Assembly (NCBI GenBank): GCA_017481205.1
Contig: JAFUPN010000041.1
Location: 1 to 64,000 of the forward strand
Reading direction: 5' to 3'
DNA length: 64,000 bases
From: Clostridia bacterium
GTDB lineage: Bacteria; Bacillota; Clostridia; UMGS1810
Shown: piece after piece, positions 54,066 to 54,561 of the stretch
How the letters are laid out: every line of letters begins with the position of its first letter
How positions within the stretch are numbered: the stretch's first letter is position 1
Position numbers and translations under genes: made by a program
Notes under the pieces: model-generated
Databases searched by the model: none
What the model was told of the DNA's origin: nothing
What the model saw: only the letters and a program-made list of their open reading frames with translations

Positions 54066-54092
54066 TACGGGTCACCGTGCCGCATGCATAGT

Positions 54093-54360
54093 CGAAAGAT
54101 AGTAATTCGAACCCGCCTGAAACGGCGTAATTTTGGTAACTTTCGGTTTGTCATCTTCCCAAGGCGCCAGCCTTGCTTCATCTTCCGCACCAAAATTCAC
54201 TCAAAATTCCATCTGTTTCAGGTCGTAGAATTTTAAAAGTGGGAATTTTTGGTTGCGTAAGGCAAAAACGCAGGTAATCCTTGACGGATTACCGAGTATT
54301 TTAACACAACGAAAGCGAAAATTCACCTTTTAAAATCGAGGTTCGGATTACTCTCTTTCG
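54093..54360. ncRNA. Candidate structured RNA or MITE-like element
   Basis: 21-nt terminal arms (54093-54113 and 54340-54360) pair with one mismatch and one G-U on the plus strand. Inside are two nested branches. Branch 1: CCTGAAAC/GTTTCAGG (54116-54123 / 54215-54222), AATTTTGGT/ACCAAAATT (54129-54137 / 54189-54197), and hairpin CAAGGC-GCCA-GCCTTG (54160-54175). Branch 2: ATTTTAAAAG/CTTTTAAAAT (54230-54239 / 54327-54336) continuing into AATTTT/AAAATT, and hairpin GGTAATCC-TTGAC-GGATTACC (54273-54293). No protein is coded. It may be a 5' leader of murJ, an independent RNA or a mobile repeat. Confidence 0.6.
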
Positions 54361-54561
54361 GCTAAGCATCAGCACGTTCCTTTCCTTTTAAAATCCGCCG
54401 GCGGAATAAGCCCCGGAAAAGCAGTGTATTTCCAAAAATTCAAACGCAGCCAAAGCAAAAACGCATCTGAAAACCAGAGCCGGAATAAGCTTCCGACGGC
54501 AAAAGCAACAAACGACAAACTGTAAAACAATTTGCCGCAGTCTACGCAAAAAATGCGCAAT
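54361..54561. other. Spacer without supported gene
   Basis: A minus-strand frame of 63 codons with a TTG start and no ribosome-binding site lies here; I do not support it. The segment directly follows the ireB stop and includes a short TGCG/CGCA hairpin around 54543-54556. Confidence 0.4.

Follow-up and report, generated by a model that had tools for sequence, protein, structure and literature searches.

A structured, TA-flanked element upstream of murJ in a Clostridia bacterium: a probable non-autonomous mobile element with two divergent modules

The window analysed here, a 64,000-nt stretch of a Clostridia bacterium genome (assembly GCA_017481205.1, contig JAFUPN010000041.1), carries a structured element between murJ on its left and ireB on its right. 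Both genes lie on the minus strand, and the start codon of murJ lies 23 bp downstream of the element. The initial annotation had placed it at 54093-54360; that region is indeed structured, but the true unit is slightly larger and spans 54089-54364, with a 272-nt body (54091-54362) that has a TA dinucleotide on either side (54089-54090 and 54363-54364). These borders rest on an alignment of copies from the same genome, among which similarity ends at the TA dinucleotides, and on the TA duplication read from the empty site of a sibling copy. Two terminator-like hairpins follow ireB on the minus strand (window 54479-54538, with a terminator-like site at 54538-54512), and because of them murJ transcription may start between these hairpins and the element, or inside the element itself.

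Within the body, a left terminal arm (GTCGAAAGATAGTAATTCGAACC, 54091..54113, plus strand) pairs with a right terminal arm (GGTTCGGATTACTCTCTTTCGGC, 54340..54362, plus strand), enclosing branch 1, or module A (54112..54225), structured on the minus strand, and branch 2, or module B (54227..54340), structured on the plus strand. Module A contains a tandem G.A helix with one side at 54150..54159 (GA-N-GA-N-GA on the minus strand) and the other at 54176..54186 (also minus strand), and a perfect apical stem, CAAGGC-GCCA-GCCTTG (54160..54175), whose adjoining pair covaries. Module B has its apical hairpin, GGTAATCC-TTGAC-GGATTACC, at 54273..54293, with covariation at pairs 186-204, 187-203 and 191-199. 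All the features first noticed in the sequence are present, namely the complementary arms, the pair of nested branches and the hairpin at the tip of each, and pairing is, as noted then, slightly better on the plus strand, where the arms have one mismatch and one G.U pair against two mismatches on the minus strand. RNA folding gave -90.8 kcal/mol on the plus strand (z -7.7) and -94.0 on the minus strand (z -7.4), and none of 200 shuffles reached the native energy on either; both strands are far more stable than shuffles, and the nested helices exceed chance (z about -7.5 on both).

Compensatory change was assessed in a non-redundant set of 79 full copies, whose mean identity is 0.66, with our own approximation of R-scape rather than R-scape itself, in which a tree-aware null redistributed substitutions over branches and about 37,000 column pairs were judged at E<0.05. 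All 23 significant column pairs fall within predicted helices, with eight in the terminal arms, five in branch 1 and ten in branch 2, and substitutions keep the helices. In alignment A1, comprising branch 2 of 37 sequences, 93.0% of cells are paired, compared with 74.4% after shuffling and at most 52.7% with partners slid, and 277 cells are altered on both sides, compared with 83 in shuffles; double-sided changes occur at 30 of the 40 pairs of this branch. Copies fetched by pattern had been preselected for the branch-2 core, so that ascertainment accounts in part for its invariance; the pairs that covary fall mostly where the DNA search pattern had left positions open. Covariation thus supports the helices, as expected of a structured RNA, and the interior, judged from these alignments, is conserved as structure.

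The relation between the two branches was decided by a covariance model, R1, built from branch 2 only, after half-to-half comparison had proved weak by profile search and moderate by profile-profile alignment, the controls of which were themselves raised. R1 scores 119.3 bits on branch 2 of the window; on branch 1 it scores 22.7 bits on the opposite (minus) strand and only 2.6 bits on the same (plus) strand, and branch 1 of three further loci is likewise matched on the opposite strand (L196, 54.9 bits; L198, 50.2 bits; L214, 43.5 bits). Because a model of branch 2 alone recognises branch 1 in reverse orientation, the branches are two divergently oriented copies of one module of ~115 nt inside the basal stem.

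The strand of each module, which the initial annotation had left open, is resolved by half: branch 1 (left) gives its best fold on the minus strand and branch 2 (right) on the plus strand. In module B, changes from Watson-Crick pairs to G.U outnumber those to A.C by 52 to 20, compared with 15 to 26 in apical module A (pair 72-87 included) and a neutral 40 to 50 in the arms. Branch 1 shows on its minus strand up to three tandem G.A motifs spaced by single covarying pairs; the three steps carry GA/GA tandems in 54, 50 and 22 of the 79 copies, and pair 68-92, between the motifs, is TA in 37 and CG in 33. On the strength of this wobble bias and these tandem motifs, together with the covariation, each module is conserved as a fold on one strand, which leads from the element centre to the nearer tip. 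Whole-element RNAalifold energies were disregarded for this purpose, one alignment favouring the plus strand and another the minus strand.

Branch 1 can be read on the minus strand as a conserved peptide (DFGAEDE..LTPFEDDKPKD..), in a frame that stays largely open for 75 nt and has a dN/dS of 0.67. This reading is extremely improbable and was rejected: in most copies the frame is immediately preceded by an in-frame stop and lacks a start codon, and the tandem G.A motifs, in which a covarying pair recurs every three bases, account for the period-3 pattern. The earlier impression that the element does not resemble a protein gene accordingly withstood a direct check of coding.

The element is far from confined to this locus. 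Its own genome, a 2.2-Mb draft that is 71% complete, yielded 45 to 49 BLAST matches to the element and 87 matches to its ends. Near-full copies number about 23, of which about 15 are of the window type and 8 belong to a second type with the end TAGCCTTAGCAACCAATACTGAAGA and the same interior. Deletion derivatives, at least 24 in number, extend down to 60 bp and retain TA-flanked ends; they seem to have lost the stretch between short repeats, such as CTTTCGG, present inside the element and at its end. Because deletion forms without modules exist, again down to 60 bp, the module may be dispensable for TA-flanked presence. At one locus (L023), a first-type left end sits at a TA within a second-type copy. 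A second interspersed palindromic repeat, with the core TTTTTGCATGGAAAATC...GATTTTCTGTGCAAAAAGCGCCCCGTCCC, was also seen in this genome (L022, L059, L072), one copy of which interrupts an element (L022).

Homologues sought beyond this genome were likewise found across Clostridia, with R1 matches in 58 of 291 genomes and 40 of 181 genera; named records retrieved by DNA pattern were for the most part Clostridia assembled from metagenomes of gut samples of ruminants and horses. In relatives, nearly all copies measure 271-279 nt, and their ends take many sequences (TAGCCTGACAG, TAGGGTGACAG, TAGCCATTGG, TAACCGAAAC and TAAGCAGAGG among them), each end being able to pair with its partner. Across the Clostridia copies the terminal arms show at least ten clearly distinct sequences, always with complementarity kept, which identifies the ends, by comparison of copies, as almost free to vary provided that they pair. 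In distant genomes, both a single module inside other self-complementary ends (e.g., TTAGGAACAACTGAATAATAAA) and divergent pairs were observed. No Rfam family scored above its gathering threshold, and a relaxed threshold returned chance matches only, placing the element in no known Rfam family; the plasmids and phages searched gave no match, and viral contigs lacked the module core, three matches to one arm sequence there not being elements. The literature searches turned up no description of the element.

Two further sequence contexts were recorded among the copies. Some end sequences, at four loci (L281, L309, L215 and L150), contain a motif resembling a tRNA T-arm (GTTCGANTCC, e.g., GGGGAGTCGAACCCC), which may reflect either tRNA origin or chance, and a reduced one-module element (L217:324-441) lies directly upstream of a tmRNA-gene-like start (GGGGGCGCAATGGTTTCGACGGGGATTTTGAAG), this sequence being about 50-150 bp downstream of the reduced element.

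Copies are mostly intergenic and show no orientation preference relative to their neighbours (co-directional 34 and 24, divergent 18, convergent 13). This distribution bears on the proposal that the element serves murJ alone, as a cis-regulatory RNA leader, which its position 23 bp upstream of the start codon, its co-directional setting on the minus strand and the terminator-like site after ireB would suit. With copies beside many unrelated genes in all four arrangements, that identity is effectively refuted and, as an account of the element, very improbable; a local effect on murJ is possible.

Mobility is indicated by the insertion sites themselves. A copy at the glnA end (L148) is absent from a sibling genome, which has a clean empty site (CTATATC-TA-AAGGGG, against the filled CTATATT-TA-body-TA-AAGGGG), so that one TA has become two; approximate empty sites were seen for a second copy (L146) in two siblings. 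For the sibling copy, this comparison demonstrates insertion at TA with duplication of the TA. Groups of identically scoring copies within some genomes point to recent spread. Moreover, a sibling genome has a ~160-nt internal-deletion form (L256:1641-1800) where another copy sits (L140), which shows that an orthologous insertion has decayed. The multiple copies, TA target duplication and empty site bear out the earlier suspicion of a palindromic mobile repeat. Target-site duplications had also been named as the mark of a mere transposon relic, and only half of that description applies: the TA duplication is present, but substitutions preserve the helices.

In its architecture the element resembles a TA-type MITE, with terminal inverted repeats and TA, multiple copies and no transposase gene of its own. 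An ordinary MITE that descended from a TA-targeting insertion sequence, whether IS630/Tc1-like or another, and that folded only as a functionless by-product of its inverted repeats, would account for the TA duplication, the terminal inverted arms, the high copy number and the lack of orientation bias. In MITEs, ends are expected to be conserved while the inside drifts; here the interior is conserved and the ends are variable, the reverse of that expectation, and the interior helices covary across families with unrelated ends. Additionally, the IS630-type DDE_3 domain (PF13358), which carriers of an IS630/Tc1-derived MITE would be expected to encode, was found neither in the own genome nor in any of the 15 carrier genomes searched. 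An ordinary MITE is therefore improbable.

Y1 transposases (PF01797) occur in 9 of the 16 genome entries searched (two genomes seem to be entered twice), are absent from the own genome and elsewhere are not flanked by the module, and the linkage of a Y1 transposase to the repeats that marks RAYT-mobilised REP elements was not observed. More generally, DDE_Tnp_1, Y1 and IS1182-type transposases showed no consistent link to the element, and none of the families tested occurs consistently in the carriers. Two IS1182-type transposase fragments were noted at contig ends of the own genome (L269, at the start of C20, and L270, at the end of C43, of G000); the sequence adjoining both differs from the element ends. 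No autonomous partner with shared ends was found in the fetched loci or through four transposase families, in a sample in which most genomes are drafts, which lose insertion sequences.

Altogether, the element is very probably a non-autonomous, MITE-like mobile element that inserts at TA and whose body consists of two divergent structured modules in a self-complementary basal stem. The best reading would place it in a new superfamily of TA-inserting, non-autonomous elements whose defining feature is the structured module and not the ends. Of the three identities first proposed, the mobile palindromic repeat and the structured element with compensatory changes hold together, and the murJ leader was dropped. 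The mobilising transposase would act in trans, and the module would act as a single strand. On balance, the module is slightly more likely than not to be a cis-acting RNA through which insertions become tolerable or useful. With modules arranged divergently, a transcript arriving from either side would end in one correctly oriented module before the downstream gene, and one properly oriented module near the 3' side of the transcript, whichever way the element is inserted, would fit an orientation-independent cis-acting RNA.

The free variation of the ends would be equally well accommodated if the element were recognised during mobilisation as folded single-stranded DNA, in the manner of REP/IS200 or integron attC, with end sequences drifting since only their pairing matters. 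This is a serious possibility that falls short of probable: the ends are variable yet always complementary and one strand folds per half, but Y1 transposases do not work by TA duplication, and Y1 genes occur in only 9 of the 16 entries and have no module beside them. A broader view, of a class of transposable elements defined by a folded module (RNA or single-stranded DNA) that shared machinery recognises, with ends that need only pair and may have almost any sequence, is rather unlikely. A structured module matched, in many copies, in about 20% of sampled Clostridia genomes and missing from Rfam represents a sizeable annotation gap. With its conserved interior and variable ends, the element poses the question of whether a selfish repeat here carries a functional RNA or is recognised by its shape.

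Among known systems, REP/BIME elements, which RAYT (Y1) transposases move, are dispersed intergenic repeats made of structured units in inverted pairs. The present element likewise has inverted structured units between genes, but differs in its TA target duplication, the lack of a flanking Y1 gene and a much larger fold. The TA-terminated bacterial MITEs Correia/NEMIS, ERIC/RU-1 and RUP are short and non-coding, with terminal inverted repeats and 5'-TA-3' ends, and share with the element many intergenic copies and stable predicted transcripts (PMC2229807). In contrast to their length of about 100-200 nt, the element has 272 nt, is two-branched and was found with no IS630, and its interior covaries across many families while its ends vary (PMC2229807). 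The CIR repeats of Caulobacter and Brucella also possess two long arms with a linker and a conserved RNA-like structure, but are ~110 bp long without typical terminal repeats, whereas the arms of the element are homologous modules inside a basal stem (PMC2229807); no sequence relation between the two was seen. MRSC-65-2 is likewise a multi-copy structured motif with covariation, inconsistent gene orientation and an RNA or DNA form left undecided, although it forms a single long stem with UYCCGG repeats, unlike the divergently duplicated multi-loop module and TA duplication described here (PMC11109978). The element fits the 'mobile/repeat sequence candidate' class (PMC11109978), and it differs from known MITEs and repeat candidates in its conserved multi-helix interior, its module duplication, its variable ends and its class-wide range.
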